DNA of 64,000 nucleotides. Source: Solea solea. Taxonomy: Eukaryota; Chordata; Actinopteri; Pleuronectiformes; Soleidae. Every line of letters starts with the position of its first letter. Position 1 is the stretch's first letter. Below are positions 17,041 through 55,647 of the stretch, one piece after another. A program made the translations under genes and the position numbers. Location: NCBI RefSeq assembly GCF_958295425.1, contig NC_081151.1, forward strand, positions 14,604,606-14,668,605, read 5' to 3'. The notes beneath the pieces were generated by a model that did no database searches, had not been told where the DNA came from, and was given only the letters and a program-made list of their open reading frames with translations.

Positions 17041-17046
17041 AATACT

Positions 17047-20826: not shown

Positions 20827-20985
20827 CTTCATTTGTGAGGTTTATATTTTGGGACAGTAGAAAAATTAAAAAAATCAGGAAACAGCCTTAGCTCAGCTGA
20901 ATACGCACACAAACAGACACCAATAGAAAAACCCATCCAAACTGTGAAATCATTGCAAAATCAAACACTGAGGGTACAGAAGTAT
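20827..20985 (+). repeat. Single satellite A monomer between two B arrays
   Basis: One A monomer, starting at CTTCATTTGTGAGG and ending ...GGGTACAGAAGTATT, embedded between B arrays. It has the GAATACGCACAC and TTAGCTCAGC variants that mark the first monomer after B in every later composite copy. Confidence 0.93.
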
Positions 20986-21940
20986 TTTAGACGACATGCT
21001 ATACTATGACATTTTTGTCTCTTTTTTGACCACATACTATACTATGACGTTTTTGTCTCATTTAGACTACATACTATACTATGACGTTTTTGTCTCATTT
21101 TGGAAGACATAGCATACTATGACATTTTTGAGTCATTTTGGACGACATACTATACTATGACATTTTTGTGTCATTTTGGACGACATACTATACTATGACA
21201 TTTTTGTGTCATTTTGGAAGACATACTATACTATGACGTTTTTGTCTCATTTTGGACATCATACTATACTATGACATTTTTGAGTTATTTTGGACGAAAT
21301 ACTATAGTGACATTTTTTAGTTGTTTGGACGACATACTATACTATGACATTATTGAGTTGTTTTGGACGACATTCTATACTATGACATTTTTGTCTCATT
21401 TTAAACGACACACTATGCAATGACATTTTTGTCTCATTTTGGACGACATACTATGCTATGACATTCTTATCTCATTTTGGACGATATGCTATACTATAAA
21501 ATTTTTATCTTATTTTGGGCGACATACTATACTATGACATTTTTGACTCATTTTGAAAAACATACTATACTAAGACGTTTTTGTCTCATTTTGAAAAACA
21601 TACTATACTATGACATTTTTGTGTGATTTTGGACGATATACTATACTATGTCGTTTTTGTCTCATTTTTGACAACATACGATACTATGACGTTTGTGTCT
21701 CATTTTGAAAAACATACTATACTATGACGTTTTTGTCTCATTTTGGACATCATACTATACTATGACATTTTTGAGTTATTTTGGACGATATACTATAGTG
21801 ACATTTTTTAGTTGTTTTGGACAACATACTATACTATGACATTTTTGAGTTATTTTGGACAATATACTATACTGACATTTTTTAGTTGTTTTGGACGTCA
21901 TACTATACTATGACATTATTGAGTGATTTTGGACAACATA
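20986..21940 (+). repeat. Minisatellite B, second array
   Basis: About 25 units of the 38 bp repeat between A sequences. The left junction is GAAGTAT|TTTAGACGAC and the right is GGACAACATAC|TTCATTTG, the same pair of junctions seen in all later composite copies. Confidence 0.95.
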
Positions 21941-22496
21941 CTTCATTTGTGAAGTATATATTATGGGAGAGTAGAAAAAAGAAAAACATCCGAAAACAGC
22001 CTTATCTCAGCATAATGCGCACACAAACAGACACCAATAGAAAAACACATCCCAACTGTGAAATCGTTGCAAAATCAAACACTGAGGGAACAGAAGTATA
22101 TCTTTTAAGATGTTAACTTCATTTGTGAGCTTTATATTATGGGACAGTAGAAAAATGAAAAAAATCAGTAAACAGCCTTACCTCAGCTGAATGCGCACAC
22201 AAAAAGACAGTAATAGAAAAACACATCCGAACAGTGAAATCATTGCAAAATCAAACACTGAGGGTACATAAATATATCTTATATGATGTTAACTTAATTT
22301 GTGAGGTTAATATTGTGGGACAGTAGAAAAAAGAAAAAATCAGTAAACAGCCTTATCTCACCGTAATGTGCACACAGAAGGACACCAATAGGAAAACATA
22401 ACCAAACAGTGGAAAAATTACAAATTCAAATACTGAGGCTACATAAATATATCTTATAAGGTGTTAACTTCATTTGTGAGTTTTATTTAGAAAAAA
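21941..22496 (+). repeat. Satellite A monomers preceding the first C cassette
   Basis: Monomer starts at 21941, 22117, 22293 and 22468. The last is cut after about 30 bp by the C cassette. Compared with later copies, this copy lacks about 15 bp (ATTATAGGACAG part) just before the cassette. Confidence 0.92.
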
Positions 22497-22769
22497 GATT
22501 GAAATACCCTCGATCAGCCTTAGTCTCTACTACACATACTGAAAAATCAGACCCCTGGCTCAATGCCTTTATTAATTATTGAAGAAAATACAGTTTCCCG
22601 CCTTTTTTACGTTTGAATTTTACAGACTGTCATTTTGGCCGCTACACGGTGACCTTTGGCCCTAGAGACCCCATATTCGGAACAGGGGATCCTCTGGACC
22701 CACTAAACAATAATCTGATAAAAAATATAAATAAAGTCCTCTAGAATAATATTTGGTGCAATTTCAGGC

Positions 22770-23346
22770 TGACCTTTGACCTTTCCGAAGGTTGCACAGG
22801 TCTGAAACTCGGCACCCTAGATCAGCCTAAGTCCCTGATACACATACGGAAAAATCTGACTCCTGGCTTAATGCCTTTAGGAATTATTACAAAAAACACA
22901 CCCGAACGGCTGACCTTTGACCTTTCCGAAGGTTACACGGGTCTAAAACTCGGCACCCTAGATCAGCCTTAGTCCCTGATACACATACGGAAAAATCACA
23001 CTCCTGGCTTAATGCCTTTAGGAATTATTACAAAAAACACACCCGAACGGCTGACCTTTGACCTTTCCGAAGGTTGCACAGGTCTGAAACTCAGCACCCT
23101 GGATCAACCTCAGTCCCTGATACACATACTGAAAAATCAGACTCCTGGCTCAATGCCTTTAGGAATTATTACAAAAAACACACCCGAACGGCTGACCTTT
23201 GACCTTTCCAAAGGCTGCACAGGTCTGAAACTCGGCACCCTGGATCACTCTTACTCCCTGATACACATACGAAAAAATCAGACTCCTGGCTTAATGCCTT
23301 TACAAATAATTACAAAAAACACACCCGAACTGCTGACCTTTGACCT
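22770..23346 (-). promoter_or_regulatory. Array of perfect DR1 nuclear-receptor sites in C units
   Basis: Each C unit contains TGACCTTTGACCT, whose complement AGGTCAAAGGTCA is the consensus direct repeat with one-base spacer (DR1) recognised by HNF4, COUP-TF and PPAR/RXR-type receptors. In this block sites start at 22770, 22911, 23052, 23193 and 23334. Further blocks start at 25296 (6 sites), 27963 (5), 31437 (7), 35193 (7), 38000 (3), 41192 (7), 44709 (4), about 47803 (4), 50946 (6), 53612 (6) and about 63893 (1 before the window end). The flanking arms carry degenerate forms (TGACCTTTGGCCC and GACCTTTGACCTG). The match is exact. Binding is not shown. Confidence 0.6.
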
Positions 23347-23590
23347 TTCTGAAGGTTGCACAGGTCTGAAACTCGGAACCCTGGATCAGCCTCAATCCCT
23401 GATACGCATACGGAGAAATCAGCATCCTGGCTCATTGCCTTTAGGAATTATTGAAGAAAAGACAGTTTCAGACCTTTTTTACTTTTTTGAATTTTACAGA
23501 CTGTCTTTTTGTTCTGCTACGTGGAGACCTTTGACCTGGGGGCTCCATATTCGGAACAGAGGATCCTCCGGAGCCACTAAACAATAATCT

Positions 23591-23799
23591 GGGGGGGAAA
23601 AGCCCAAAGGACTGTTTGTCCTGTGTCCAAAAGCTGAAAATCAGGTCGTGTCAGACTCTATACAGTCTTAGACCCTTTGGCCAGAGTGGAGGTTTTGGAG
23701 GGAACTACATTGCTACAGGTCGCAAGAGTGTGAATTTTTCATATGTCGTTTGGAGTCCTAAGACAAGCGGAACGACACCAGTCCCGTTCCGCGTCCCGG
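23591..23799 (+). repeat. D segment (representative copy)
   Basis: A 209-210 bp segment found once per composite copy, always between the trailing C arm and the re-entry into satellite A. It begins with a run of seven G and ends CGCGTCCCGG. It is more GC- and CpG-rich than the rest of the array and contains two small hairpin-forming pairs: AAGGAC...GTCCTG-like near 23,609 and AGACT...AGTCT near 23,652. Other copies start at 26259, 28783, 32539, 36295, 38538, 42294, 45388, 48482, 51906 and 54573. A 76-98 codon open frame crosses its end into A but begins without a supported start. Confidence 0.85.
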
Positions 23800-25021
23800 A
23801 AATAGCCTTATCTCAGTGTAATGCACACAGAAAGACACCAATAGGAAAACATAACCAAGCAGTGAAAAAATTACAAATTCAAACACTGAGGGTACATAAG
23901 TATATATTATAAGTTGTTAACTTCATTCGTGAGTTTTATATTATAGGACAGTAGAAAAAAGATAAAAATACGAAATATAGCCTTATCTCAGCATAATGTG
24001 CACACAAAAAGACACCAAAAGGAAAAAACACATCCACACAGTGAAATCCTTGCAGAATCAAATACTGAGGGTACAGAAGAATTTAGACGACATCCTATAC
24101 TATGACATTTTTGAGTTATTTTGGACGATATACTATAGTGACATTTTTTAGTTGTTTTGGACAACATACTATACTATGACATTTTTGAGTTATTTTGGAC
24201 AATATACTATACTGACATTTTTTAGTTGTTTTGGACGTCATACTATACTATGACATTATTGAGTGATTTTGGACAACATACTTCATTTGTGAGGTTTATA
24301 TTTTGGGACAGTAGAAAAATTAAAAAAATCAGGAAACAGCCTTAGCTCAGCTGAATACGCACACAAACAGACACCAATAGAAAAACCCATCCAAACTGTG
24401 AAATCATTGCAAAATCAAACACTGAGGGTACAGAAGTATGTCATAAGATGTTAACTTCATTTGTGAAGTATATATTATGGGAGAGTAGAAAAAAGAAAAA
24501 CATCCGAAAACAGCCTTATCTCAGCATAATGCGCACACAAACAGACAACAATAGAAAAACACATCCCAACTGTGAAATCGTTGCAAAATCAAACACTGAG
24601 GGAACAGAAGTATATCTTTTAAGATGTTAACTTCATTTGTGAGCTTTATATTATGGGACAGTAGAAAAATGAAAAAAATCAGTAAACAGCCTTACCTCAG
24701 CTGAATGCGCACACAAAAAGACAGTAATAGAAAAACACATCCGAACAGTGAAATCATTGCAAAATCAAACACTGAGGGTACATAAATATATCTTATATGA
24801 TGTTAACTTAATTTGTGAGGTTAATATTGTGGGACAGTAGAAAAAAGAAAAAATCTGGAAATAGCCTTATCTCACCGTAATGTGCACACAGAAAGACACC
24901 AATAGGAAAACATAACCAAACAGTGGAAAAATTACAAATTCAAATACTGAGGCTACATAAATATATCTTATAAGGTGTTAACTTCATTTGTGAGTTTTAT
25001 ATTATAGGACAGTAGAAAAAA

Positions 25022-27689
25022 GATTGAAATACCCTCGATCAGCCTTAGTCTCTACTACACATACTGAAAAATCAGACCCCTGGCTCAATGCCTTTATTAA
25101 TTATTGAAGAAAATACAGTTTCCCGCCTTTTTTTACGTTTGAATTTTACAGACTGTCCTTTTGGCTGCTACACGGTGACCTTTGGCCCTAGAGACCCCAT
25201 ATTCGGAACAGGGGATCCTCTGGACCCACTAAACAATAATCTGATAAAAAATATGAATAAAGTCCTCTAGAATAATATTTGGTGCAATTTCAGGCTGACC
25301 TTTGACCTTTCCGAAGGTTGCACAGGTCTGAAACTCGGCACCCTAGATCAGCCTAAGTCCCTGATACACATACGGAAAAATCTGACTCCTGGCTTAATGC
25401 CTTTAGGAATTATTACAAAAAACACACCCGAACGGCTGACCTTTGACCTTTCCGAAGGTTACACGGGTCTAAAACTCGGCACCCTAGATCAGCCTTAGTC
25501 CCTGATACACATACGGAAAAATCTGACTCCTGGCTTAATGCCTTTAGGAATTATTACAAAAAACACACCCGAACGGCTGACCTTTGACCTTTCCGAAGGT
25601 TACACGGGTCTAAAACTCGGCACCCTAGATCAGCCTTAGTCCCTGATACACATACGGAAAAATCACACTCCTGGCTCAATGCCTTTAGGAATTATTACAA
25701 AAAACACACCCGAACGGCTGACCTTTGACCTTTCCAAAAGCTGCAAAGGGTCTGAAACTCGACACCCTGGATCACTCTTACTCCCTGATACACATACTGA
25801 AAAATCAGACTCCTGGCTCAATGCCTTTAGGAATTATTACAAAAAACACACCCGAACGGCTGACCTTTGACCTTTCTGAAGGTTGCACAGGTCTGAAACT
25901 CGGCACCCTGGATCACTCTTACTCCCTGATACACATACGGAAAAATCAGACTCCTGGCTTAATGCCTTTACAAATAATTACAAAAAACACACCCGAACTG
26001 CTGACCTTTGACCTTTCTGAAGGTTGCACAGGTCTGAAACTCGGAACCCTGGATCAGCCTCAATCCCTGATACGCATACGGAGAAATCAGCATCCTGGCT
26101 CATTGCCTTTAGGAATTATTGAAGAAAAGACAGTTTCAGACCTTTTTTACTTTTTTGAATTTTACAGACTGTCTTTTTGTTCCGCTACGTGGAGACCTTT
26201 GACCTGGGGGCTCCATATTCGGAACAGAGGATCCTCCGGAGCCACTAAACAATAATCTGGGGGGGAAAAGCCCAAAGGACTGTTTGTCCTGTGTCCAAAA
26301 GCTGAAAATCAGGTCGTGTCAGACTCTATACAGTCTTAGACCCTTTGGCCAGAGTGGAGGTTTTGGAGGGAACTACATTGCTACAGGTCGCAAGAGTGTG
26401 AATTTTTCATATGTCGTTTGGAGTCCTAAGACAAGCGGAACGACACCAGTCCCGTGCCGCGTCCCGGAAATAGCCTTATCTCAGTGTAATGCACACAGAA
26501 AGACACCAATAGGAAAACATAACCAAGCAGTGAAAAAATTACAAATTCAAACACTGAGGGTACATAAGTATATATTATAAGTTGTTAACTTCATTTGTGA
26601 GTTTTATATTATAGGACAGTAGATAAAAGATAAAAATACGAAATATAGCCTTATCTCAGCATAATGTGCACACAAAATGACACCAAAAGGAAAAAACACA
26701 TCCACACAGTGAAATCCTTGCAGAATCAAATACTGAGGGTACAGAAGAATTTAGACGACATCCTATACTATGACATTTTTGAGTTATTTTGGACGATATA
26801 CTATAGTGACATTTTTTAGTTGTTTTGGACAACATACTATACTATGACATTTTTGAGTTATTTTGGACAATATACTATACTGACATTTTTTAGTTGTTTT
26901 GGACGTCATACTATACTATGACATTATTGAGTGATTTTGGACAACATACTTCATTTGTGAGGTTTATATTTTGGGACAGTAGAAAAATTAAAAAAATCAG
27001 GAAACAGCCTTAGCTCAGCTGAATACGCACACAAACAGACACCAATAGAAAAACCCATCCAAACTGTGAAATCATTGCAAAATCAAACACTGAGGGTACA
27101 GAAGTATGTCATAAGATGTTAACTTCATTTGTGAAGTATATATTATGGGAGAGTAGAAAAAAGAAAAACATCCGAAAACAGCCTTATCTCAGCATAATGC
27201 GCACACAAACAGACAACAATAGAAAAACACATCCCAACTGTGAACTCGTTGCAAAATCAAACACTGAGGGAACAGAAGTATATCTTTTAAGATGTTAACT
27301 TCATTTGTGAGCTTTATATTATGGGACAGTAGAAAAATGAAAAAAATCAGTAAACAGCCTTACCTCAGCTTAATGCGCACACAAAAAGACAGTAATAGAA
27401 AAACACATCCGAACAGTGAAATCATTGCAAAATCAAACACTGAGGGTACATAAATATATCTTATATGATGTTAACTTAATTTGTGAGGTTAATATTGTGG
27501 GACAGTAGAAAAAAGAAAAAATCTGGAAATAGCCTTATCTCACCGTAATGTGCACACAGAAAGACACCAATAGGAAAACATAACCAAACAGTGGAAAAAT
27601 TACAAATTCAAATACTGAGGCTACATAAATATATCTTATAAGGTGTTAACTTCATTTGTGAGTTTTATATTATAGGACAGTAGAAAAAA
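25022..27689 (+). repeat. Composite satellite copy 2
   Basis: Six C units. The fourth has an extra base (GCTGCAAAGGGTCTGAAAC, near 25,741), so spacing to the next site is 142 bp and the open frame shifts. D 26,259-26,467; short B 26,750-26,948; A 26,949-27,689. Length 2,668 bp. Confidence 0.93.
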
Positions 27690-30600
27690 GATTGAAATAC
27701 CCTCGATCAGCCTTAGTCTCTACTACACATACTGAAAAATCAGACCCCTGGCTCAATGCCTTTATTAATTATTGAAGAAAATACAGTTTCCCGCCTTTTT
27801 TACGTTTGAATTTTACAGACTGTCCTTTTGGCCGCTACACGGTGACCTTTGGCCCTAGAGACCCCATATTCGGAACAGGGGATCCTCTGGAACCACTAAA
27901 CAATAATCTGATAAAAAATATAAATAAAGTCCTCTAGAATAATATTTGGTGCAATTTCAGGCTGACCTTTGACCTTTCCGAAGGTTGCACAGGTCTGAAA
28001 CTCGGCACCCTAGATCAGCCTAAGTCCCTGATACACATACGGAAAAATCACACTCCTGGCTTAATGCCTTTAGGAATTATTACAAAAAACACACCCGAAC
28101 GGCTGACCTTTGACCTTTCCGAAGGTTACACGGGTCTAAAACTCGGCACCCTAGATCAGCCTTAGTCCCTGATACACATATGGAAAAATCACACTCCTGG
28201 CTTAATGCCTTTAGGAATTATTACAAAAAACACACCCGAACGGCTGACCTTTGACCTTTCCGAAGGTTGCACAGGTCTGAAACTCAGCACCCTGGATCAA
28301 CCTCAGTCCCTGATACACATACTGAAAAATCAGACTCCTGGCTTAATGCCTTTAGGAATTATTACAAAAAACACACCCGAACGGCTGACCTTTGACCTTT
28401 CCGAAGGTTGCACAGGTCTGAAACTCAGCACCCTGGATCAACCTCAGTCCCTGATACACATACTGAAAAATCAGACTCCTGGCTTAATGCCTTTACAAAT
28501 AATTACAAAAAACACACCCGAACTGCTGACCTTTGACCTTTCTGAAGGTTGCACAGGTCTGAAACTCGGAACCCTGGATCAGCCTCAATCCCTGATACGC
28601 ATACGGAGAAATCAGCATCCTGGCTCATTGCCTTTAGGAATTATTGAAGAAAAGACAGTCTCACACCTTTTTTACTTTTTTGAATTTTACAGACTGTCTT
28701 TTTGTTCCGCTACGTGGAGACCTTTGACCTGGGGGCTCCATATTCGGAACAGAGGATCCTCCGGAGCCACTAAACAATAATCCGGGGGGGAAAAGCCCAA
28801 AGGACTGTTTGTCCTGTGTCCAAAAACTGAAAATCAGGTCGTGTCAGACTCTATACAGTCTTAGACCCTTTGGCCAGAGTGGAGGTTTTGGAGGGAACTA
28901 CATTGCTACAGGTCGCAAGAGTGTGAATTTTTCATATGTCGTTTGGGGTCCTAAGACAAGCGGAACGACACCAGTCCCGTGCCGCGTCCCGGAAATAGCC
29001 TTATCTCAGTGTAATGCGCACACAGAAAGACACCAATAGGAAAACATAACCAAACAGTGAAAAAATTACAAATTCAAACACTGAGGGTACATAAGTATAT
29101 ATTATAAGTTGTTAACTTCATTCGTGAGTTTTATATTATAGGACAGTAGAAAAAAGATAAAAATACAAAATATAGCATTATCTCAGCATAATGCGCACAC
29201 AAAAAGACACCAAAAGGAAAAAACACATCCACACAGTGAAATCATTGCAAAATCAAATACTGAGGGTACAGAAGTATTTTAGACGACATGCTATACTATG
29301 ACATTTTTGTCTCTTTTTTGACAACATACTATACTATGACGTTTCTGTCTCATTTAGACGACATACTATTCTATGACATTTTTGAGTTATTTTGGACGAC
29401 ATACTATACTATGACGTTTTTATCTCATTTTGGACGACATACTATACTATGACCTTTTTATGTCATTTTGGACGACAAACTATACTATGACATTTTTGTG
29501 TCATTTTGGACGACATACTATACTATGACGTTTTTGTCTCATTTCGGACAACATACTATACTATGACGTTTTTGTCTCATTTTGGACGACATACTATACT
29601 ATGACATTTTTGAGTTATTTTGGACGACATACTATACAATGACATTTTTGTGTCATTTTGGACAACATACTATACTATGACATTTTTGTGTCATTTTGGA
29701 AGACATACTATACTATGACGTTTTTGTCTCATTTTGGACATCATACTATACTATGACATTTTTGAGTTATTTTGGACGAAATACTATAGTGACATTTTTT
29801 TGTTGTTTGGACGACATACTATACTATGACATTATCGAGTTGTTTTGGACGACATTCTATACTATGACATGTTTGTCTCATTTTGAACGACACACTATGC
29901 AATGACAATTTTGTCTCATTTTGGACGACATACTATGCTATGACATTCTTATCTCATTTTGGACGATATGCTATACTATAAAATTTTTATCTTATTTTGG
30001 GCGACATACTATACTATGACATTTTTGTCTCATTTTGAAAAACATACTATACTAAGACGTTTTTGTCTCATTTTGAAAAACATACTATACTATGACATTT
30101 TTGTGTGATTTTGGACGATATACTATACTATGTCGTTTTTGTCTCATTTTGGACAACATACGATACTATGACGTTTGTGTCTCATTTTGAAAAACATACT
30201 ATACTATGACATTTTTGAGTTATTTTGGACGATATACTATAGTGATATTTTTTAGTTGTTTTGGACAACATACTATACTATGACATTTTTTAGTTGTTTT
30301 GGACAACATACTATACTATGACATTTTTGAGTTATTTTGGACAATATACTATACTGACATTTTTTAGTTGTTTTGGACGTCATACTATACTATGACATTA
30401 TTGAGTGATTTTGGACAACATACTTCATTTGTGAGGTTTATATTTTGGGACAGTAGAAAAATTAAAAAAATCAGGAAACAGCCTTAGCTCAGCTGAATAC
30501 GCACACAAACAGACACCAATAGAAAAACCCATCCAAACTGTGAAATCATTGCAAAATCAAACACTGAGGGTACAGAAGTATGTCATAAGATGTTAACTTC

Positions 30601-31163
30601 ATTTGTGAAGTATATATTATGGGAGAGTAGAAAAAAGAAAAACATCCGAAAACAGCCTTATCTCAGCATAATGCGCACACAAACAGACAACAATAGAAAA
30701 ACACATCCCAACTGTGAACTCGTTGCAAAATCAAACACTGAGGGAACAGAAGTATATCTTTTAAGATGTTAACTTCATTTGTGAGCTTTATATTATGGGA
30801 CAGTAGAAAAATGAAAAAAATCAGTAAACAGCCTTACCTCAGCTGAATGCGCACACAAAAAGACAGTAATAGAAAAACACATCCGAACAGTGAAATCATT
30901 GCAAAATCAAACACTGAGGGTACATAAATATATCTTATATGATGTTAACTTAATTTGTGAGGTTAATATTGTGGGACAGTAGAAAAAAGAAAAAATCTGG
31001 AAATAGCCTTATCTCACCGTAATGTGCACACAGAAAGACACCAATAGGAAAACATAACCAAACAGTGGAAAAATTACAAATTCAAATACTGAGGCTACAT
31101 AAATATATCTTATAAGGTGTTAACTTCATTTGTGAGTTTTATATTATAGGACAGTAGAAAAAA
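27690..31163 (+). repeat. Composite satellite copy 3
   Basis: Five C units; D 28,783-28,992; long B array 29,276-30,422 (about 30 units); A monomers 30,423-31,163. Length 3,474 bp. The long B form distinguishes this copy from copies 1 and 2. Confidence 0.93.
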
Positions 31164-34100
31164 GATTGAAATACCCTCGATCAGCCTTAGTCTCTACTAC
31201 ACATACTGAAAAATCAGACCCCTGGCTCAATGCCTTTATTAATTATTGAAGAAAATACAGTTTCCCGCCTTTTTTACGTTTGAATTTTACAGACTGTCCT
31301 TTTGGCCGCTACACGGTGACCTTTGGCCCTAGAGACCCCATATTCGGAACAGGGGATCCTCTGGACCCACTAAACAATAATCTGATAAAAAATATAAATA
31401 AAGTCCTCTAGAATAATATTTGGTGCAATTTCAGGCTGACCTTTGACCTTTCCGAAGGTTGCACAGGTCTGAAACTCGGCACCCTAGATCAGCCTAAGTC
31501 CCTGATACACATACGGAAAAATCACACTCCTGGCTTAATGCCTTTGGGAATTATTACAAAAAACACACCCGAACGGCTGACCTTTGACCTTTCCGAAGGT
31601 TACACGGGTCTAAAACTCGGCACCCTAGATCAGCCTTAGTCCCTGATACACATACGGAAAAATCACACTCCTGGCTTAATGCCTTTAGGAATTATTACAA
31701 AAAACACACCCAAACGGCTGACCTTTGACCTTTCCGAAGGTTGCACAGGTCTGAAACTCAGCACCCTGGATCAACCTCAGTCCCTGATACACATACTGAA
31801 AAATCAGACTCCTGGCTTAATGCCTTTAGGAATTATTACAAAAAACACACCCGAACGGCTGACCTTTGACCTTTCCGAAGGTTGCACAGGTCTGAAACTC
31901 AGCACCCTGGATCAACCTCAGTCCCTGATACACATACTGAAAAATCAGACTCCTGGCTTAATGCCTTTAGGAATTATTACAAAAAACACACCCGAACGGC
32001 TGACCTTTGACCTTTCCGAAGGTTGCACAGGTCTGAAACTCGGCACCCTGGATCACTCTTACTCCCTGATACACATACGGAAAAATCAGACTCCTGGCTT
32101 AATGCCTTTACAAATAATTACAAAAAACACACCCGAACGGCTGACCTTTGACCTTTCCAAAGGCTGCACAGGTCTGAAACTCGGCACCCTGGATCACTCT
32201 TACTCCCTGATACACATACGGAAAAATCAGACTCCTGGCTTAATGCCTTTACAAATAATTACAAAAAACACACCCGAACTGCTGACCTTTGACCTTTCTG
32301 AAGGTTGCACAGGTCTGAAACTCGGAACCCTGGATCAGCCTCAATCCCTGATACGCATACGGAGAAATCAGCATCCTGGCTCATTGCCTTTAGGAATTAT
32401 TGAAGAAAAGACAGTCTCACACCTTTTTTACTTTTTTGAATTTTACAGACTGTCTTTTTGTTCCGCTACGTGGAGACCTTTGACCTGGGGGCTCCATATT
32501 CGGAACAGAGGATCCTCCGGAGCCACTAAACAATAATCCGGGGGGGAAAAGCCCAAAGGACTGTTTGTCCTGTGTCCAAAAACTGAAAATCAGGTCGTGT
32601 CAGACTCTATACAGTCTTAGACCCTTTGGCCAGAGTGGAGGTTTTGGAGGGAACTACATTGCTACAGGTCGCAAGAGTGTGAATTTTTCATATGTCGTTT
32701 GGGGTCCTAAGACAAGCGGAACGACACCAGTCCCGTGCCGCGTCCCGGAAATAGCCTTATCTCAGTGTAATGCGCACACAGAAAGACACCAATAGGAAAA
32801 CATAACCAAACAGTGAAAAAATTACAAATTCAAACACTGAGGGTACATAAGTATATATTATAAGTTGTTAACTTCATTCGTGAGTTTTATATTATAGGAC
32901 AGTAGAAAAAAGATAAAAATACAAAATATAGCATTATCTCAGCATAATGCGCACACAAAAAGACACCAAAAGGAAAAAACACATCCACACAGTGAAATCA
33001 TTGCAAAATCAAATACTGAGGGTACAGAAGTATTTTAGACGACATGCTATACTATGACATTTTTGTCTCTTTTTTGACAACATACTATACTATGACGTTT
33101 CTGTCTCATTTAGACGACATACTATTCTATGACATTTTTGAGTTATTTTGGACGACATACTATACTATGACGTTTTTATCTCATTTTGGACGACATACTA
33201 TACTATGACCTTTTTATGTCATTTTGGACGACAAACTATACTATGACATTTTTGTGTCATTTTGGACGACATACTATACTATGACGTTTTTGTCTCATTT
33301 CGGACAACATACTATACTATGACGTTTTTGTCTCATTTTGGACGACATACTATACTATGACATTTTTGAGTTATTTTGGACGACATACTATACAATGACA
33401 TTTTTGTGTCATTTTGGACAACATACTATACTATGACATTTTTGTGTCATTTTGGAAGACATACTATACTATGACGTTTTTGTCTCATTTTGGACATCAT
33501 ACTATACTATGACATTTTTGAGTTATTTTGGACGAAATACTATAGTGACATTTTTTTGTTGTTTGGACGACATACTATACTATGACATTATCGAGTTGTT
33601 TTGGACGACATTCTATACTATGACATGTTTGTCTCATTTTGAACGACACACTATGCAATGACAATTTTGTCTCATTTTGGACGACATACTATGCTATGAC
33701 ATTCTTATCTCATTTTGGACGATATGCTATACTATAAAATTTTTATCTTATTTTGGGCGACATACTATACTATGACATTTTTGTCTCATTTTGAAAAACA
33801 TACTATACTAAGACGTTTTTGTCTCATTTTGAAAAACATACTATACTATGACATTTTTGTGTGATTTTGGACGATATACTATACTATGTCGTTTTTGTCT
33901 CATTTTGGACAACATACGATACTATGACGTTTGTGTCTCATTTTGAAAAACATACTATACTATGACATTTTTGAGTTATTTTGGACGATATACTATAGTG
34001 ATATTTTTTAGTTGTTTTGGACAACATACTATACTATGACATTTTTTAGTTGTTTTGGACAACATACTATACTATGACATTTTTGAGTTATTTTGGACAA

Positions 34101-34919
34101 TATACTATACTGACATTTTTTAGTTGTTTTGGACGTCATACTATACTATGACATTATTGAGTGATTTTGGACAACATACTTCATTTGTGAGGTTTATATT
34201 TTGGGACAGTAGAAAAATTAAAAAAATCAGGAAACAGCCTTAGCTCAGCTGAATACGCACACAAACAGACACCAATAGAAAAACCCATCCAAACTGTGAA
34301 ATCATTGCAAAATCAAACACTGAGGGTACAGAAGTATGTCATAAGATGTTAACTTCATTTGTGAAGTATATATTATGGGAGAGTAGAAAAAAGAAAAACA
34401 TCCGAAAACAGCCTTATCTCAGCATAATGCGCACACAAACAGACAACAATAGAAAAACACATCCCAACTGTGAACTCGTTGCAAAATCAAACACTGAGGG
34501 AACAGAAGTATATCTTTTAAGATGTTAACTTCATTTGTGAGCTTTATATTATGGGACAGTAGAAAAATGAAAAAAATCAGTAAACAGCCTTACCTCAGCT
34601 GAATGCGCACACAAAAAGACAGTAATAGAAAAACACATCCGAACAGTGAAATCATTGCAAAATCAAACACTGAGGGTACATAAATATATCTTATATGATG
34701 TTAACTTAATTTGTGAGGTTAATATTGTGGGACAGTAGAAAAAAGAAAAAATCTGGAAATAGCCTTATCTCACCGTAATGTGCACACAGAAAGACACCAA
34801 TAGGAAAACATAACCAAACAGTGGAAAAATTACAAATTCAAATACTGAGGCTACATAAATATATCTTATAAGGTGTTAACTTCATTTGTGAGTTTTATAT
34901 TATAGGACAGTAGAAAAAA
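31164..34919 (+). repeat. Composite satellite copy 4
   Basis: Seven C units (31,437-32,283 site starts), giving an open frame of 285 codons from 31,679; D 32,539-32,748; long B 33,033-34,178; A 34,179-34,919. Length 3,756 bp. The open frame is built of 47-residue repeats because 141 is divisible by three. The second C unit still carries the TAG stop, so I treat it as non-coding. Confidence 0.93.
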
Positions 34920-40918: not shown

Positions 40919-43900
40919 GATTGAAATACCCTCGATCAGCCTTAGTCTCTACTACACATACTGAAAAATCAGACCCCTGGCTCAATGCCTTTATTAATTA
41001 TTGAAGAAAATACAGTTTCCCGCCTTTTTTACGTTTGAATTTTACAGACTGTCCTTTTGGCCGCTACACGGTGACCTTTGGCCCTAGAGACCCCATATTC
41101 GGAACAGGGGATCCTCTGGACCCACTAAACAATAATCTGATAAAAAATATAAATAAAGTCCTCTAGAATAATATTTGGTGCAATTTCAGGCTGACCTTTG
41201 ACCTTTCCGAAGGTTGCACAGGTCTGAAACTCGGCACCCTAGATCAGCCTAAGTCCCTGATACACATACGGAAAAATCACACTCCTGGCTTAATGCCTTT
41301 GGGAATTATTACAAAAAACACACCCGAACGGCTGACCTTTGACCTTTCCGAAGGTTACACGGGTCTAAAACTCGGCACCCTAGATCAGCCTTAGTCCCTG
41401 ATACACATACGGAAAAATCACACTCCTGGCTTAATGCCTTTAGGAATTATTACAAAAAACACACCCAAACGGCTGACCTTTGACCTTTCCGAAGGTTGCA
41501 CAGGTCTGAAACTCAGCACCCTGGATCAACCTCAGTCCCTGATACACATACTGAAAAATCAGACTCCTGGCTTAATGCCTTTAGGAATTATTACAAAAAA
41601 CACACCCGAACGGCTGACCTTTGACCTTTCCGAAGGTTGCACAGGTCTGAAACTCAGCACCCTGGATCAACCTCAGTCCCTGATACACATACTGAAAAAT
41701 CAGACTCCTGGCTTAATGCCTTTAGGAATTATTACAAAAAACACACCCGAACGGCTGACCTTTGACCTTTCTGAAGGTTGCACAGGTCTGAAACTCGGCA
41801 CCCTGGATCACTCTTACTCCCTGATACACATACGGAAAAATCAGACTCCTGGCTTAATGCCTTTACAAATAATTACAAAAAACACACCCGAACGGCTGAC
41901 CTTTGACCTTTCCAAAGGCTGCACAGGTCTGAAACTCGGCACCCTGGATCACTCTTACTCCCTGATACACATACGGAAAAATCAGACTCCTGGCTTAATG
42001 CCTTTACAAATAATTACAAAAAACACACCCGAACTGCTGACCTTTGACCTTTCTGAAGGTTGCACAGGTCTGAAACTCGGAACCCTGGATCAGCCTCAAT
42101 CCCTGATACGCATACGGAGAAATCAGCATCCTGGCTCATTGCCTTTAGGAATTATTGAAGAAAAGACAGTCTCACACCTTTTTTACTTTTTTGAATTTTA
42201 CAGACTGTCTTTTTGTTCCGCTACGTGGAGACCTTTGACCTGGGGGCTCCATATTCGGAACAGAGGATCCTCCGGAGCCACTAAACAATAATCCGGGGGG
42301 GAAAAGCCCAAAGGACTGTTTGTCCTGTGTCCAAAAACTGAAAATCAGGTCGTGTCAGACTCTATACAGTCTTAGACCCTTTGGCCAGAGTGGAGGTTTT
42401 GGAGGGAACTACATTGCTACAGGTCGCAAGAGTGTGAATTTTTCATATGTCGTTTGGGGTCCTAAGACAAGCGGAACGACACCAGTCCCGTGCCGCGTCC
42501 CGGAAATAGCCTTATCTCAGTGTAATGCACACAGAAAGACACCAATAGGAAAACATAACCAAGCAGTGAAAAAATTACAAATTCAAACACTGAGGGTACA
42601 TAAGTATATATTATAAGTTGTTAACTTCATTCGTGAGTTTTATATTATAGGACAGTAGAAAAAAGATAAAAATACGAAATATAGCCTTATCTCAGCATAA
42701 TGTGCACACAAAAAGACACCAAAAGGAAAAAACACATCCACACAGTGAAATCCTTGCAGAATCAAATACTGAGGGTACAGAAGAATTTAGACGACATCCT
42801 ATACTATGACATTTTTGAGTTATTTTGGACGATATACTATAGTGACATTTTTTAGTTGTTTTGGACAACATACTATACTATGACATTTTTGAGTTATTTT
42901 GGACAATATACTATACTGACATTTTTTAGTTGTTTTGGACGTCATACTATACTATGACATTATTGAGTGATTTTGGACAACATACTTCATTTGTGAGGTT
43001 TATATTTTGGGACAGTAGAAAAAATAAAAAAATCAGGAAACAGCCTTAGCTCAGCTGAATACGCACACAAACAGACACCAATAGAAAAACCCATCCAAAC
43101 TGTGAAATCATTGCAAAATCAAACACTGAGGGTACAGAAGTATATCATAAGATGTTAACTTCATTTGTGAAGTATATATTATGGGAGAGTAGAAAAAAGA
43201 AAAACATCCGAAAACAGCCTTATCTCAGCATAATGCGCACACAAACAGACACCAATAGAAAAACACATCCCAACTGTGAAATCGTTGCAAAATCAAACAC
43301 TGAGGGAACAGAAGTATATCTTTTAAGATGTTAACTTCATTTGTGAGCTTTATATTATGGGACAGTAGAAAAAAGATAAAAATACGAAATATAGCCTTAT
43401 CTCAGCATAATGTGCACACAAAAAGACACCAAAAGGAAAAAACACATCCACACAGTGAAATCCTTGCAGAATCAAATACTGAGGGTACAGAAGAATTTAG
43501 ACGACATCCTATACTATGACATTTTTGAGTTATTTTGGACGATATACTATAGTGACATTTTTTAGTTGTTTTGGACAACATACTATACTATGACATTTTT
43601 GAGTTATTTTGGACAATATACTATACTGACATTTTTTAGTTGTTTTGGACGTCATACTATACTATGACATTATTGAGTGATTTTGGACAACATACTTCAT
43701 TTGTGAGGTTTATATTTTGGGACAGTAGAAAAATTAAAAAAATCAGGAAACAGCCTTAGCTCAGCTGAATACGCACACAAACAGACACCAATAGAAAAAC
43801 CCATCCAAACTGTGAAATCATTGCAAAATCAAACACTGAGGGTACAGAAGTATATCATAAGATGTTAACTTCATTTGTGAAGTATATATTATGGGAGAGT

Positions 43901-44435
43901 AGAAAAAAGAAAAACATCCGAAAACAGCCTTATCTCAGCATAATGCGCACACAAACAGACACCAATAGAAAAACACATCCCAACTGTGAAATCGTTGCAA
44001 AATCAAACACTGAGGGAACAGAAGTATATCTTTTAAGATGTTAACTTCATTTGTGAGCTTTATATTATGGGACAGTAGAAAAATGAAAAAAATCAGTAAA
44101 CAGCCTTACCTCAGCTGAATGCGCACACAAAAAGACAGTAATAGAAAAACACATCCGAACAGTGAAATCATTGCAAAATCAAACACTGAGGGTACATAAA
44201 TATATCTTATATGATGTTAACTTAATTTGTGAGGTTAATATTGTGGGACAGTAGAAAAAAGAAAAAATCTGGAAATAGCCTTATCTCACCGTAATGTGCA
44301 CACAGAAAGACACCAATAGGAAAACATAACCAAACAGTGGAAAAATTACAAATTCAAATACTGAGGCTACATAAATATATCTTATAAGGTGTTAACTTCA
44401 TTTGTGAGTTTTATATTATAGGACAGTAGAAAAAA
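40919..44435 (+). repeat. Composite satellite copy 7, with duplicated A-B segment
   Basis: Seven C units; D 42,294-42,503; short B 42,785-42,984; A; second short B 43,495-43,694; A 43,695-44,435. The A-B-A segment starting at 43,152 recurs at 43,862, a 710 bp internal duplication absent from copies 1-6. Up to about 43,370 this copy matches copy 5 at an offset of 5,999 bp. Confidence 0.92.
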
Positions 44436-47400
44436 GATTGAAATACCCTCGATCAGCCTTAGTCTCTACTACACATACTGAAAAATCAGACCCCTGGCTC
44501 AATGCCTTTATTAATTATTGAAGAAAATACAGTTTCCCGCCTTTTTTATGTTTGAATTTTACAGACTGTCCTTTTGGCCGCTACACGGTGACCTTTGGCC
44601 CTAGAGACCCCATATTCGGAACAGGGGATCCTCTGGACCCACTAAACAATAATCTGATAAAAAATATAAATAAAGTCCTCTAGAATAATATTTGGTGCAA
44701 TTTCAGGCTGACCTTTGACCTTTCCGAAGGTTGCACAGGTCTGAAACTCGGCACCCTAGATCAGCCCAAGTCCCTGATACACATACGGAAAAATCTGACT
44801 CCTGGCTTAATGCCTTTAGGAATTATTACAAAAAACACACCCGAACGGCTGACCTTTGACCTTTCCGAAGGTTACACGGGTCTAAAACTCGGCACCCTAG
44901 ATCAGCCTTAGTCCCTGATACACATACGGAAAAATCACACTCCTGGCTCAATGCCTTTAGGAATTATTACAAAAAACACACCCGAACGGCTGACCTTTGA
45001 CCTTTCCAAAGGCTGCACAGGTCTGAAACTCGGCACCCTGGATCACTCTTACTCCCTGATACACATACGGAAAAATCAGACTCCTGGCTTAATGCCTTTA
45101 CAAATAATTACAAAAAACACACCCGAACTGCTGACCTTTGACCTTTCTGAAGGTTGCACAGGTCTGAAACTCGGAACCCTGGATCAGCCTCAATCCCTGA
45201 TACTCATACGGAGAAATCAGCATCCTGGCTCATTGCCTTTAGGAATTATTGAAGAAAAGACAGTTTCAGACCTTTTTTACTTTTTTGAATTTTACAGACT
45301 GTCTTTTTGTTCCGCTACGTGGAGACCTTTGACCTGGGGGCTCCATATTCGGAACAGAGGATCCTCCGGAGCCACTAAACAATAATCCGGGGGGGAAAAG
45401 CCCAAAGGACTGTTTGTCCTGTGTCCAAAAACTGAAAATCAGGTCGTGTCAGACTCTATACAGTCTTAGACCCTTTGGCCAGAGTGGAGGTTTTGGAGGG
45501 AACTACATTGCTACAGGTCGCAAGAGTGTGAATTTTTCATATGTCGTTTGGGGTCCTAAGACAAGCGGAACGACACCAGTCCCGTGCCGCGTCCCGGAAA
45601 TAGCCTTATCTCAGTGTAATGCACACAGAAAGACACCAATAGGAAAACATAACCAAGCAGTGAAAAAATTACAAATTCAAACACTGAGGGTACATAAGTA
45701 TATATTATAAGTTGTTAACTTCATTCGTGAGTTTTATATTATAGGACAGTAGAAAAAAGATAAAAATACGAAATATAGCCTTATCTCAGCATAATGTGCA
45801 CACAAAAAGACACCAAAAGGAAAAAACACATCCACACAGTGAAATCCTTGCAGAATCAAATACTGAGGGTACAGAAGAATTTAGACGACATCCTATACTA
45901 TGACATTTTTGAGTTATTTTGGACGATATACTATAGTGACATTTTTTAGTTGTTTTGGACAACATACTATACTATGACATTTTTGAGTTATTTTGGACAA
46001 TATACTATACTGACATTTTTTAGTTGTTTTGGACGTCATACTATACTATGACATTATTGAGTGATTTTGGACAACATACTTCATTTGTGAGGTTTATATT
46101 TTGGGACAGTAGAAAAATTAAAAAAATCAGGAAACAGCCTTAGCTCAGCTGAATACGCACACAAACAGACACCAATAGAAAAACCCATCCAAACTGTGAA
46201 ATCATTGCAAAATCAAACACTGAGGGTACAGAAGTATATCATAAGATGTTAACTTCATTTGTGAAGTATATATTATGGGAGAGTAGAAAAAAGAAAAACA
46301 TCCGAAAACAGCCTTATCTCAGCATAATGCGCACACAAACAGACACCAATAGAAAAACACATCCCAACTGTGAAATCGTTGCAAAATCAAACACTGAGGG
46401 AACAGAAGTATATCTTTTAAGATGTTAACTTCATTTGTGAGCTTTATATTATGGGACAGTAGAAAAAAGATAAAAATACGAAATATAGCCTTATCTCAGC
46501 ATAATGTGCACACAAAAAGACACCAAAAGGAAAAAACACATCCACACAGTGAAATCCTTGCAGAATCAAATACTGAGGGTACAGAAGAATTTAGACGACA
46601 TCCTATACTATGACATTTTTGAGTTATTTTGGACGATATACTATAGTGACATTTTTTAGTTGTTTTGGACAACATACTATACTATGACATTTTTGAGTTA
46701 TTTTGGACAATATACTATACTGACATTTTTTAGTTGTTTTGGACGTCATACTATACTATGACATTATTGAGTGATTTTGGACAACATACTTCATTTGTGA
46801 GGTTTATATTTTGGGACAGTAGAAAAATTAAAAAAATCAGGAAACAGCCTTAGCTCAGCTGAATACGCACACAAACAGACACCAATAGAAAAACCCATCC
46901 AAACTGTGAAATCATTGCAAAATCAAACACTGAGGGTACAGAAGTATATCATAAGATGTTAACTTCATTTGTGAAGTATATATTATGGGAGAGTAGAAAA
47001 AAGAAAAACATCCGAAAACAGCCTTATCTCAGCATAATGCGCACACAAACAGACACCAATAGAAAAACACATCCCAACTGTGAAATCGTTGCAAAATCAA
47101 ACACTGAGGGAACAGAAGTATATCTTTTAAGATGTTAACTTCATTTGTGAGCTTTATATTATGGGACAGTAGAAAAATGAAAAAAATCAGTAAACAGCCT
47201 TACCTCAGCTGAATGCGCACACAAAAAGACAGTAATAGAAAAACACATCCGAACAGTGAAATCATTGCAAAATCAAACACTGAGGGTACATAAATATATC
47301 TTATATGATGTTAACTTAATTTGTGAGGTTAATATTGTGGGACAGTAGAAAAAAGAAAAAATCTGGAAATAGCCTTATCTCACCGTAATGTGCACACAGA

Positions 47401-47529
47401 AAGACACCAATAGGAAAACATAACCAAACAGTGGAAAAATTACAAATTCAAATACTGAGGCTACATAAATATATCTTATAAGGTGTTAACTTCATTTGTG
47501 AGTTTTATATTATAGGACAGTAGAAAAAA
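44436..47529 (+). repeat. Composite satellite copy 8
   Basis: Four C units; D 45,388-45,597; two short B arrays 45,880-46,078 and 46,590-46,788, with the same 710 bp A-B duplication as copy 7. Private variants (TTTTTTATGTTTG in the leading arm, CAGCCCAAGTCC, GATACTCATACGG) are shared only with copy 9. Confidence 0.92.
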
Positions 47530-50500: not shown

Positions 50501-50672
50501 AAAATCTGGAAATAGCCTTATCTCACCGTAATGTGCACACAGAAAGACACCAATAGGAAAACATAACCAAACAGTGGAAAAATTACAAATTCAAATACTG
50601 AGGCTACATAAATATATCTTATAAGGTGTTAACTTCATTTGTGAGTTTTATATTATAGGACAGTAGAAAAAA
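47530..50672 (+). repeat. Composite satellite copy 9
   Basis: The C cassette (four units) repeats that of copy 8 at an offset of 3,094 bp, including its private variants. D 48,482-48,691. It then switches to a long B array, 48,976-49,931, which is shorter than in copies 3, 4 and 6 because several units are missing and the TTAGTTG unit is repeated three times near 49,750-49,800. A 49,932-50,672. Confidence 0.92.
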
Positions 50673-53338
50673 GATTGAAATACCCTCGATCAGCCTTAGT
50701 CTCTACTACACATACTGAAAAATCAGACCCCTGGCTCAATGCCTTTATTAATTATTGAAGAAAATACAGTTTCCCGCCTTTTTTACGTTTGAATTTTACA
50801 GACTGTCCTTTTGGCCGCTACACGGTGACCTTTGGCCCTAGAGACCCCATATTCGGAACAGGGGATCCTCTGGACCCACTAAACAATAATCTGATAAAAA
50901 ATATAAATAAAGTCCTCTAGAATAATATTTGGTGCAATTTCAGGCTGACCTTTGACCTTTCCGAAGGTTGCACAGGTCTGAAACTCGGCACCCTAGATCA
51001 GCCTAAGTCCCTGATACACATACGGAAAAATCACACTCCTGGCTTAATGCCTTTAGGAATTATTACAAAAAACACACCCGAACGGCTGACCTTTGACCTT
51101 TCCGAAGGTTACACGGGTCTAAAACTCGGCACCCTAGATCAGCCTTAGTCCCTGATACACATACGGAAAAATCACACTCCTTGCTTAATGCCTTTAGGAA
51201 TTATTACAAAAAACACACCCGAACGGCTGACCTTTGACCTTTCCGAAGGTTGCACAGGTCTGAAACTCAGCACCCTGGATCAACCTCAGTCCCTGATACA
51301 CATACTGAAAAATCAGACTCCTGGCTTAATGCCTTTAGGAATTATTACAAAAAACACACCCGAACGGCTGACCTTTGACCTTTCCGAAGGTTGCACAGGT
51401 CTGAAACTCAGCACCCTGGATCAACCTCAGTCCCTGATACACATACTGAAAAATCAGACTCCTGGCTTAATGCCTTTAGGAATTATTACAAAAAACACAC
51501 CCGAACGGCTGACCTTTGACCTTTCTGAAGGTTGCACAGGTCTGAAACTCGGCACCCTGGATCACTCTTACTCCCTGATACACATACGGAAAAATCAGAC
51601 TCCTGGCTTAATGCCTTTACAAATAATTACAAAAAACACACCCGAACTGCTGACCTTTGACCTTTCTGAAGGTTGCACAGGTCTGAAACTCGGAATCCTG
51701 GATCAGCCTCAATCCCTGATACGCATACGGAGAAATCAGCATCCTGGCTCATTGCCTTTAGGAATTATTGAAGAAAAGACAGTCTCACACCTTTTTTACT
51801 TTTTTGAATTTTACAGACTGTCTTTTTGTTCCGCTACGTGGAGACCTTTGACCTGGGGGCTCCATATTCGGAACAGAGGATCCTCCGGAGCCACTAAACA
51901 ATAATCCGGGGGGGAAAAGCCCAAAGGACTGTTTGTCCTGTGTCCAAAAACTGAAAATCAGGTCGTGTCAGACTCTATACAGTCTTAGACCCTTTGGCCA
52001 GAGTGGAGGTTTTGGAGGGAACTACATTGCTACAGGTCGCAAGAGTGTGAATTTTTCATATGTCGTTTGGGGTCCTAAGACAAGCGGAACGACACCAGTC
52101 CCGTGCCGCGTCCCGGAAATAGCCTTATCTCAGTGTAATGCACACAGAAAGACACCAATAGGAAAACATAACCAAGCAGTGAAAAAATTACAAATTCCAA
52201 CACTGAGGGTACATAAGTATATATTATAAGTTGTTAACTTCATTCGTGAGTTTTATATTATAGGACAGTAGAAAAAAGATAAAAATACGAAATATAGCCT
52301 TATCTCAGCATAATGTGCACACAAAAAGACACCAAAAGGAAAAAACACATCCACACAGTGAAATCCTTGCAGAATCAAATACTGAGGGTACAGAAGAATT
52401 TAGACGACATCCTATACTATGACATTTTTGAGTTATTTTGGACGATATACTATAGTGACATTTTTTAGTTGTTTTGGACAACATACTATACTATGACATT
52501 TTTGAGTTATTTTGGACAATATACTATACTGACATTTTTTAGTTGTTTTGGACGTCATACTATACTATGACATTATTGAGTGATTTTGGACAACATACTT
52601 CATTTGTGAGGTTTATATTTTGGGACAGTAGAAAAAATAAAAAAATCAGGAAACAGCCTTAGCTCAGCTGAATACGCACACAAACAGACACCAATAGAAA
52701 AACCCATCCAAACTGTGAAATCATTGCAAAATCAAACACTGAGGGTACAGAAGTATATCATAAGATGTTAACTTCATTTGTGAAGTATATATTATGGGAG
52801 AGTAGAAAAAAGAAAAACATCCGAAAACAGCCTTATCTCAGCATAATGCGCACACAAACAGACACCAATAGAAAAACACATCCCAACTGTGAAATCGTTG
52901 CAAAATCAAACACTGAGGGAACAGAAGTATATCTTTTAAGATGTTAACTTCATTTGTGAGCTTTATATTATGGGACAGTAGAAAAATGAAAAAAATCAGT
53001 AAACAGCCTTACCTCAGCTTAATGCGCACACAAAAAGACAGTAATAGAAAAACACATCCGAACAGTGAAATCATTGCAAAATCAAACACTGAGGGTACAT
53101 AAATATATCTTAAATGATGTTAACTTAATTTGTGAGGTTAATATTGTGGGACAGTAGAAAAAAGAAAAAATCTGGAAATAGCCTTATCTCACCGTAATGT
53201 GCACACAGAAAGACACCAATAGGAAAACATAACCAAACAGTGGAAAAATTACAAATTCAAATACTGAGGCTACATAAATATATCTTATAAGGTGTTAACT
53301 TCATTTGTGAGTTTTATATTATAGGACAGTAGAAAAAA
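50673..53338 (+). repeat. Composite satellite copy 10
   Basis: Six C units, with GGAATCCTGG in the last one; D 51,906-52,116; short B 52,399-52,597; A 52,598-53,338. Length 2,666 bp. Confidence 0.92.
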
Positions 53339-55647
53339 GATTGAAATACCCTCGATCAGCCTTAGTCTCTACTACACATACTGAAAAATCAGACCCCTGG
53401 CTCAATGCCTTTATTAATTATTGAAGAAAATACAGTTTCCCGCCTTTTTTACGTTTGAATTTTACAGACTGTCCTTTTGGCCGCTACACGGTGACCTTTG
53501 GCCCTAGAGACCCCATATTCGGAACAGGGGATCCTCTGGACCCACTAAACAATAATCTGATAAAAAATATAAATAAAGTCCTCTAGAATAATATTTGGTG
53601 CAATTTCAGGCTGACCTTTGACCTTTCCGAAGGTTGCACAGGTCTGAAACTCGGCACCCTAGATCAGCCTAAGTCCCTGATACACATACGGAAAAATCAC
53701 ACTCCTGGCTTAATGCCTTTAGGAATTATTACAAAAAACACACCCGAACGGCTGACCTTTGACCTTTCCGAAGGTTACACGGGTCTAAAACTCGGCACCC
53801 TAGATCAGCCTTAGTCCCTGATACACATACGGAAAAATCACACTCCTGGCTTAATGCCTTTAGGAATTATTACAAAAAACACACCCGAACGGCTGACCTT
53901 TGACCTTTCCGAAGGTTACACGGGTCTAAAACTCGGCACCCTAGATCAGCCTTAGTCCCTGATACACATACGGAAAAATCACACTCCTGGCTTAATGCCT
54001 TTAGGAATTATTACAAAAAACACACCCGAACGGCTGACCTTTGACCTTTCCGAAGGTTGCACAGGTCTGAAACTCAGCACCCTGGATCAACCTCAGTCCC
54101 TGATACACATACTGAAAAATCAGACTCCTGGCTTAATGCCTTTAGGGATTATTACAAAAAACACACCCGAACGGCTGACCTTTGACCTTTCTGAAGGTTG
54201 CACAGGTCTGAAACTCGGCACCCTGGATCACTCTTACTCCCTGATACACATACGGAAAAATCAGACTCCTGGCTTAATGCCTTTACAAATAATTACAAAA
54301 AACACACCCGAACTGCTGACCTTTGACCTTTCTGAAGGTTGCACAGGTCTGAAACTCGGAACCCTGGATCAGCCTCAATCCCTGATACGCATACGGAGAA
54401 ATCAGCATCCTGGCTCATTGCCTTTAGGAATTATTGAAGAAAAGACAGTCTCACACCTTTTTTACTTTTTTGAATTTTACAGACTGTCTTTTTGTTCCGC
54501 TACGTGGAGACCTTTGACCTGGGGGCTCCATATTCGGAACAGAGGATCCTCCGGAGCCACTAAACAATAATCCGGGGGGGAAAAGCCCAAAGGACTGTTT
54601 GTCCTGTGTCCAAAAACTGAAAATCAGGTCGTGTCAGACTCTATACAGTCTTAGACCCTTTGGCCAGAGTGGAGGTTTTGGAGGGAACTACATTGCTACA
54701 GGTCGCAAGAGTGTGAATTTTTCATATGTCGTTTGGGGTCCTAAGACAAGCGGAACGACACCAGTCCCGTGCCGCGTCCCGGAAATAGCCTTATCTCAGT
54801 GTAATGCGCACACAGAAAGACACCAATAGGAAAACATAACCAAACAGTGAAAAAATTACAAATTCAAACACTGAGGGTACATAAGTATATATTATAAGTT
54901 GTTAACTTCATTCGTGAGTTTTATATTATAGGACAGTAGAAAAAAGATAAAAATACAAAATATAGCCTTATCTCAGCATAATGTGCACACAAAAAGACAC
55001 CAAAAGGAAAAAACACAGCCACACAGTGAAATCATTGCAAAATCAAATACTGAGGGTACAGAAGTATTTTAGACGACATGCTATACTATGACATTTTTGT
55101 CTCTTTTTTGACAACATACTATACTATGACGTTTCTGTCTCATTTAGACGACATACTATTCTATGACATTATCGAGTTGTTTTGGACGACATTCTATACT
55201 ATGACATGTTTGTCTCATTTTGAACGACACACTATGCAATGACATTTTTGTCTCATTTTGGACGACATACTATACTATAAAATTTTTATCTTATTTTGGG
55301 CGACATACTATACTATGACATTTTTGTCTCATTTTGAAAAACATACTATACTAAGACGTTTTTGTCTCATTTTGAAAAACATACTATACTATGACATTTT
55401 TGTGTGATTTTGGACGATATACTATACTATGTCGTTTTTGTCTCATTTTGGACAACATACGATACGATGACGTTTGTGTCTCATTTTGAAAAACGTACTA
55501 TACTATGACGTTTTTGTCTCATTTTGGACATCATACTATACTATGACATTTTTGAGTTATTTTGGACAATATACTATACTGACATTTTTTAGTTGTTTTG
55601 GACGTCATACTATACTATGACATTATTGAGTGATTTTGGATAACATA
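53339..55647 (+). repeat. Composite satellite copy 11 (last before array A2)
   Basis: Six C units, two of which keep the TAG stop; D 54,573-54,782; A; intermediate-length B array 55,077-55,647. After B the composite-type monomer starts (TTTATATTTTGGG) but changes within about 35 bp into array-1-type satellite A. The unit therefore ends in a recombinant monomer. Confidence 0.92.

Follow-up and report, generated by a model that had tools for sequence, protein, structure and literature searches.

The 64,000-nucleotide window analysed here (C38:14604606-14668605) lies on the Solea solea contig NC_081151.1, called C38 below, and carries a composite satellite in which a 38-bp minisatellite (B) and a cassette made of 141-bp tandem units (C), two arms, and a segment D are lodged in monomers of a satellite, A. 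A, B, and C were placed in the window with Tandem Repeats Finder (TRF), profile scans, and junction searches; 264 kb around the window was read in addition, and the genome searched comprises 642 Mb in 211 contigs. Features lie on the plus strand unless stated otherwise.

Parts and layers of the array

The composite higher-order array occupies positions 21941-55647 and consists of 11 units with the cassette and two without it. Its frame is satellite A, with a period of 174-176 bp in TRF and profile scans, slightly longer than the 172 bp given in the initial annotation, and the order of a unit is a1-a2-a3-a4-a5[cassette]-a7-B, about six A monomers in all. The arrays of A, B, and C lie as that annotation described them, and its estimate of at least 11 assemblies of 2.3-3.8 kb agrees with the 11 complete cassette units, all in one orientation, that measure 2,340-3,756 bp; a 12th begins at the window end, after 7.4 kb of pure A. 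As in a composite satellite, A, B, C, and D are all present in each of the 11 units.

The two foreign parts enter A at different points. Monomer a5 is broken by the cassette after position ~47, and A picks up again at position 50 (50-174), while B stands at the end of a7 in place of the 12-bp palindrome ATCTTATAAGAT of the A consensus (160-171). The cassette runs from a half C unit through the left arm, three to seven C units, and the right arm to D. The two arms, previously described as related, are 82.6% alike over 213 columns, and each of them continues a C unit. The 61 C units in the window represent 24 distinct sequences, the last one cut, and the C arrays finish in one unit type or one-base variants thereof, with a varying number of units before that end. 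In a representative complete unit of 3,756 bp (30423-34178), monomers a1-a4 (30423-31121) and the left part of a5 (31124-31172) are followed by the half C unit (31173-31260, ~C position 46 to 134), the left arm (31261-31434), whose end resembles the cassette start at an A junction on contig C3, seven C units, the last of them shorter (31435-32415), the right arm (32416-32537), D (32538-32744), the right part of a5 together with a7 (32745-33036; A 50-174 and A 1-162), and a B array of the long type (33037-34178, 1,142 bp).

The junctions between these parts are sharp. Exact copies in the window number 12 for A|cassette, 11 for D|A, and six for A|long-B, and 13 of the 15 B|A junctions are exact, the other two having one mismatch. 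Eleven of the 14 intervals between successive B|A junctions hold a cassette. The remaining three are two 710-bp units of the form a1-a2-a3/a7 chimera-B (42985-43694 and its second copy, 46079-46788), which lie inside a 3,094-bp duplication, and the first interval, a lone A monomer with B (1,114 bp). B is 196-1,142 bp long in these intervals. Across the 264 kb, profile matches of A, B, and D do not overlap one another, and those of A and C overlap by 19 bp at 37 junctions only; at the sensitivity used, the earlier view of A, B, and C as unrelated repeats holds.

Near-identical blocks within the array raise the question of whether errors in the repeat graph stacked A, B, C, and the segment G described below in the observed order. 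At an offset of 5,999 bp, 5,228 bp repeat with 13 mismatches, and at an offset of 3,094 bp, 3,826 bp repeat with 17. Such an assembly artefact is nonetheless very improbable: these blocks are not exact, the number of C units, the length of B, and the A content vary between units throughout the 264 kb, related composites occur on other contigs, and C, arm, D, and A are read through in two proteins predicted on ENA contigs (P0003 and P0005).

The units are in turn part of a larger repeat, which adds a fourth level to the three nested levels of the initial annotation. To the left of the composite array lie a pure A array of ~65 monomers (1-11247) with a higher-order period of its own (2,247 bp, ~13 monomers, 17 mismatches over 5,460 bp), the 7.9-kb non-satellite segment G (11248-19147, given without a strand), a B array adjoining G (19148-20826), a lone A monomer inside B in which a1 is joined to the end of long-type a7 (20827-20988), and a 952-bp B array (20989-21940). 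To its right are a pure A array (55648-63049) and monomers a2-a5 with the start of the 12th cassette, cut by the window end (63052-64000). G looks unique within the window but occurs in five copies in the 264 kb, of which the window holds the second; they are 7,791-7,903 bp long, their ten pairs are 99.2-99.8% identical, and their starts are 24.9, 62.3, 37.7, and 58.2 kb apart. On its left G meets A and on its right B, at the same junctions in all five copies, except that copy 4 is without 36 bp of B just past the junction. The macro-unit reads G, B, (lone a1 and B in four of five), composite units, pure A, and the next G, with pure A runs of 30 to 74 monomers; the second macro-unit has two such runs with one composite unit between them, and the fifth was read short of its end.

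G contains a Niban-2-like exon with AG/GT splice sites (14216-14371, minus strand) and a Niban-2-like exon stretch with a probable in-frame stop directly upstream (13604-13696, minus strand), as well as L1-like pieces recognised by eye. The joined product of the two exons matches human Niban 2 (E 1.1e-21). Between the five G copies, the exon stretches compared (201 and 141 bp) show no difference, and comparison with the human protein places a TAG in the frame immediately upstream of the second stretch. Together, the identical exons and the TAG suggest that G already contained a dead piece of a gene when its amplification began.

Searches against recorded elements gave no further identification. 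Rfam returns no family at the gathering threshold for the window, and neither strand of it has an exact match to the core pattern of the 17-bp CENP-B box, exact forms being the only ones covered. Exact words of B and D have no match in viral contigs, nor do words of B in bacterial and archaeal genomes, as expected for fish DNA.

Relatives of the cassette and the probable entry of B

D had been taken to be unique. In the genome, a 20-mer of D matches 1,389 times on the forward and 1,312 times on the reverse strand when up to three mismatches are allowed (2,701), compared with 27 and 31 (58) for the reversed D control, and composites of A, C, and D are present on three other large contigs. The 100 exact D matches listed comprise 26 on C2 (14.48-15.63 of 40.0 Mb), two on C3 (19.17 and 20.06 of 37.3 Mb), and 72 on C4 (8.63-9.13 of 26.9 Mb). 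Among the 40 best candidates, further A matches lie on C3, C4, C33, and C34. We read five stretches on C2, C3, and C4, 38 kb together, which with C38 make six sampled stretches. D runs into A in all six, and C-D outside A is seen in none of them, most of the 2,701 D matches lying beyond the sample. The last C38 copy is truncated where its stretch ends. In one C4 stretch, L042, a strand switch forms the left flank: at L042 3121-3250, a C array on the minus strand meets A on the plus strand, which makes this an inversion junction within the satellite. On C3, one C array (L041 1-4714) has at least 34 units and is far longer than the C38 arrays.

The ends of the cassette take several forms. In one C3 array, A is followed by a fuller cassette start (TTGTTGCAATTTCAGCCTGACC) and then by C, while C38, C2, and C4 have one common, shorter left junction that leads straight into C position 46. 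The right junction is D206|A50 in C38, both C3 stretches, and the second C4 stretch, and D~189|A139-144 in C2 and a C4 array. A chromosome-specific form is found for C38 only; C2 and C4 share theirs. The simplest order of these forms, judged from the junctions, would lead from the fuller C3 form to the C38 form and on to the C2/C4 form; it concerns forms and not whole chromosomes, because C4 and C3 each hold two. D copies are 99.6% identical within C38 and 89.5-93.5% identical between C38 and the other stretches, and the D of C38 is separated from that of these other stretches with a support of 0.998 (38 of the 39 C38 copies were used, one being cut by the stretch end, and the C units of C38 were taken from 24 kb only). 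B is absent from the 38 kb read on C2, C3, and C4, and the left arm is at none of the C array starts seen there. Since the motif GGTGCAATTTCAGGCTGACC comes after the left arm in C38, the cassette there resembles a truncated copy with a fuller one behind it. By these comparisons, C-D within A is the older association, common to several contigs, and B in A is seen on C38 only.

A distribution over at least four contigs is also what a non-autonomous mobile element would give, if the cassette were one with internal tandem repeats, like some miniature inverted-repeat transposable elements (MITEs), with a preference for A and a separate insertion on each chromosome. The ends of C-D in A are sharp, three left-end forms exist, and the internal tandem array varies in number, like that of the oyster MITE related to satellites, as far as it is described in PMC4107277. 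But no terminal inverted repeat or clear target duplication is seen by eye in the junction alignment, where the A repeats could mask a short duplication, and the junction D206|A50 recurs in C38, C3, and C4 stretches, a pattern better explained by a single insertion that exchange then spread. We regard repeated insertion as unlikely, though less so than the other alternatives.

The C array has open frames of up to 298 aa, its 141-bp unit being equal to 47 codons, and the ratio of nonsynonymous to synonymous changes in this frame is 1.33, compared with 2.48 expected, as might be seen if C belonged to a protein-coding gene. Six of the 19 distinct full C units contain a stop in the frame, and 37% of trials with a shuffled 141-mer give one or more endless frames. 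When the longest C frame is used as a query, six of 7,996 scored candidates are returned, all of them unnamed proteins predicted on ENA contigs. Translated comparison identifies P0003 and P0005 as C-arm-D-A read-throughs with the derived D|A junction, which may not be from the same species, and P0006 as a C-A read-through; the four proteins compared read the repeats, often in shifting frames, and the D frame retrieves P0005 only. With stops in a third of the units, shuffled frames that behave alike, and matches that are repeat read-throughs, we set a coding C array aside as unsupported: the frame does not appear convincingly coding, the read-through proteins give no evidence for a real protein, and a gene here is extremely unlikely.

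B has a narrower distribution. The B|A junction (24 bases, up to two mismatches) has 77 matches genome-wide, all on one strand of C38 between 14.41 and 15.08 Mb, compared with 0 + 0 for the control, which fits a single entry of B into A there. B shares the 18-base word AAAAATGTCATAGTATAG and the 38-bp unit length with Lca_38 (the two features compared), and Lca_38 is described in PMC4833346 as a 38-base probe that marks pericentromeres of Asian seabass by fluorescence in situ hybridization. In the passages covered, that report does not place Lca_38 inside another satellite, unlike B. Because B resembles Lca_38, and because the listed D matches cluster in the interior of three large contigs, the setting of the array is likely pericentromeric or (peri)centromeric by analogy. 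B is located where the A palindrome is absent, as it would be had it grown in place from A with no capture. Yet 772 A and 1,033 B profile matches have zero overlap, B also borders segment G, and its relative is a pericentromeric repeat in another fish, all of which make growth from A improbable.

Homogenisation and exchange within C38

A monomers at the same position are 97.6-99.6% identical across units, compared with 80-92% for different positions, a contrast well in excess of chance, and identity inside pure A arrays is 91-92%. The array has the form of a higher-order repeat (HOR) satellite, with diverged monomers in the unit, near-identical monomers at the same position, and units placed head to tail; all 39 D copies in the 264 kb are on the plus strand. 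Some A monomers are chimeric. Those at 43335-43498 and 46429-46592 start as a3 and go on as short-type a7 (a7s), and the monomer at 20827-20988 is an a1 with the end of long-type a7 (a7L). The a3/a7 and a1/a7 chimeras are the products expected of out-of-register exchange between A monomers, and they show that such exchange reshapes the array.

Copy number changes at every level. Whole-monomer deletions across the 264 kb leave units with a1-only, a1-a2-a7, a3-a4, a1-a3-a4, or a1-a4. The 39 cassettes have three (1), four (11), five (12), six (10), seven (3), or eight (2 arrays) C units, and the 38 measured B arrays range from 196 to 2,968 bp, nine of them being exactly 196. The short B (196 bp between A monomers, with profile matches spanning 182 bp) comes after 11 of 11 a7s monomers and 0 of 29 a7L monomers counted across the 264 kb. 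Because short B always accompanies a7s and never a7L, the length of B is inherited together with the neighbouring monomer. The driver of these changes in copy number, we infer, is unequal exchange between A monomers or a similar homologous repair.

Proposed history of the array and its meaning

We consider it likely that the array is a nested composite satellite that grew by accretion in successive steps, probably at a (peri)centromere of the fish. This reading draws on the junctions, their distribution as far as searched, the copy numbers, and the identities given above. In a first step, the C-D cassette would have landed in one A monomer at ~48 and, with A, become a composite repeat of several chromosomes. 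In a second, the left end of the cassette would have been trimmed, giving the form with one common junction now on C38, C2, and C4, and the form on C2 and one C4 array would share a further trimmed right end. In a third step, seen on C38 only, the B minisatellite would have replaced the palindrome that ends one A monomer, and the second arm of the cassette would belong here too. In a fourth, likewise seen on C38 only, the 7.9-kb segment with its probably dead gene exons would have come to lie between A and B, and everything from one G copy to the next would have been multiplied as a macro-unit. We infer the order of the third and fourth steps. The initial annotation had proposed two captures into A followed by co-amplification, and both pieces do lie inside A monomers and are amplified together; its single round of amplification does not fit, because the layers differ in age (C-D is on C2-C4, whereas all 77 B|A matches are on C38) and G makes a third capture. 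The likeliest role of the array is passive heterochromatin.

Several observations weigh against this history or parts of it. It is based on one assembly, where copies may be collapsed or misjoined. All 100 exact D matches among those listed are on C2-C4. The A match on C34 lies at 0.62 Mb, not clearly in the interior of the contig. C4 holds both right-junction forms (L039 and L042), and in the second C3 stretch (L043 3030-3130) the left junction takes a third form, A~27|C~112, whose two sides share AGGA; the forms are therefore not one-to-one with chromosomes. The B|A search detects that junction only, and B joined to A otherwise would escape it. At C38:14701591, a B array is fused straight to a truncated half C unit, a nonhomologous deletion. 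D copies are not grouped by macro-unit (99.15-99.6% identity within and 99.16-99.58% between), so that either macro-units or units may be the older.

A more specific version would make satellite A a trap, with the palindrome ATCTTATAAGAT as a recurrent site of break and capture from which each captured piece is spread along one chromosome by exchange. B stands in the place of the palindrome, and the derived D|A junction of C2/C4 and the A|G junctions of C38 lie within ~20 bp upstream of it; against this, three sites fall outside that region, namely the cassette site at A 47/50, the A~27|C~112 junction, and the strand switch at A~109. We consider such a trap doubtful. If it were true, breaks, captures, and amplifications could be read from the nested layers, all the way to exon-carrying macro-units.

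Stepwise accretion of foreign pieces has partial parallels elsewhere. Bovine satellite 1.711b resembles the present array in that an insertion into a satellite unit was followed by joint amplification. It contains one insertion and is not known to have nested variable arrays. The alpha-satellite HORs, as outlined in PMC4107277, have ~171-bp monomers that are diverged within the unit, and their arrays are often chromosome-specific and flanked by monomeric repeats. The present array is similar to them in monomer size, in-unit divergence, and a chromosome-specific array flanked by monomeric repeats, but, compared with that account, it has two foreign tandem arrays inside monomers, and its unit array is one layer of a macro-unit. 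The sheep Y centromere has a 2.5-kb composite unit with a short and a long interspersed nuclear element (SINE and LINE) according to PMC11436988; both systems are tandem composite units of unlike parts, 2-4 kb in size, but the sheep inserts are transposons and the inserts here are tandem arrays of variable copy number. The 1.711b unit is 2.6 kb long (PMC7644632). The oyster MITE with internal tandem repeats related to satellites, as presented in PMC4107277, and the cassette are both inserted and have an internal tandem array, but transposon ends were not found in the cassette. In a teleost, the pike 5S ribosomal DNA is built of blocks of repeats that form larger repeats; it differs in being made of gene units, with no nested foreign satellites described in the available part of PMC5437419.

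Composite satellites, HORs, and links between satellites and transposons are already known (PMC11436988, PMC4107277). Sequence words of A and the cassette have no match in the main texts of open papers, where a word of B matched the Lca_38 paper, and topic searches over titles and abstract starts found no title on such an array, which is weak evidence of absence. To that extent, four nested levels, with two variable arrays in monomers, a gene-bearing macro-unit, and relatives that order the captures, seem new. Homogenisation usually wipes out the history of a satellite array. In this array the foreign junctions are sharp, some being common to chromosomes and others found on a single one; they suggest an order of events, and the exchange process is visible in chimeric monomers. 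The corresponding junctions in related fish could address how composite satellites form, how far homogenisation reaches between chromosomes, and how gene pieces are captured.

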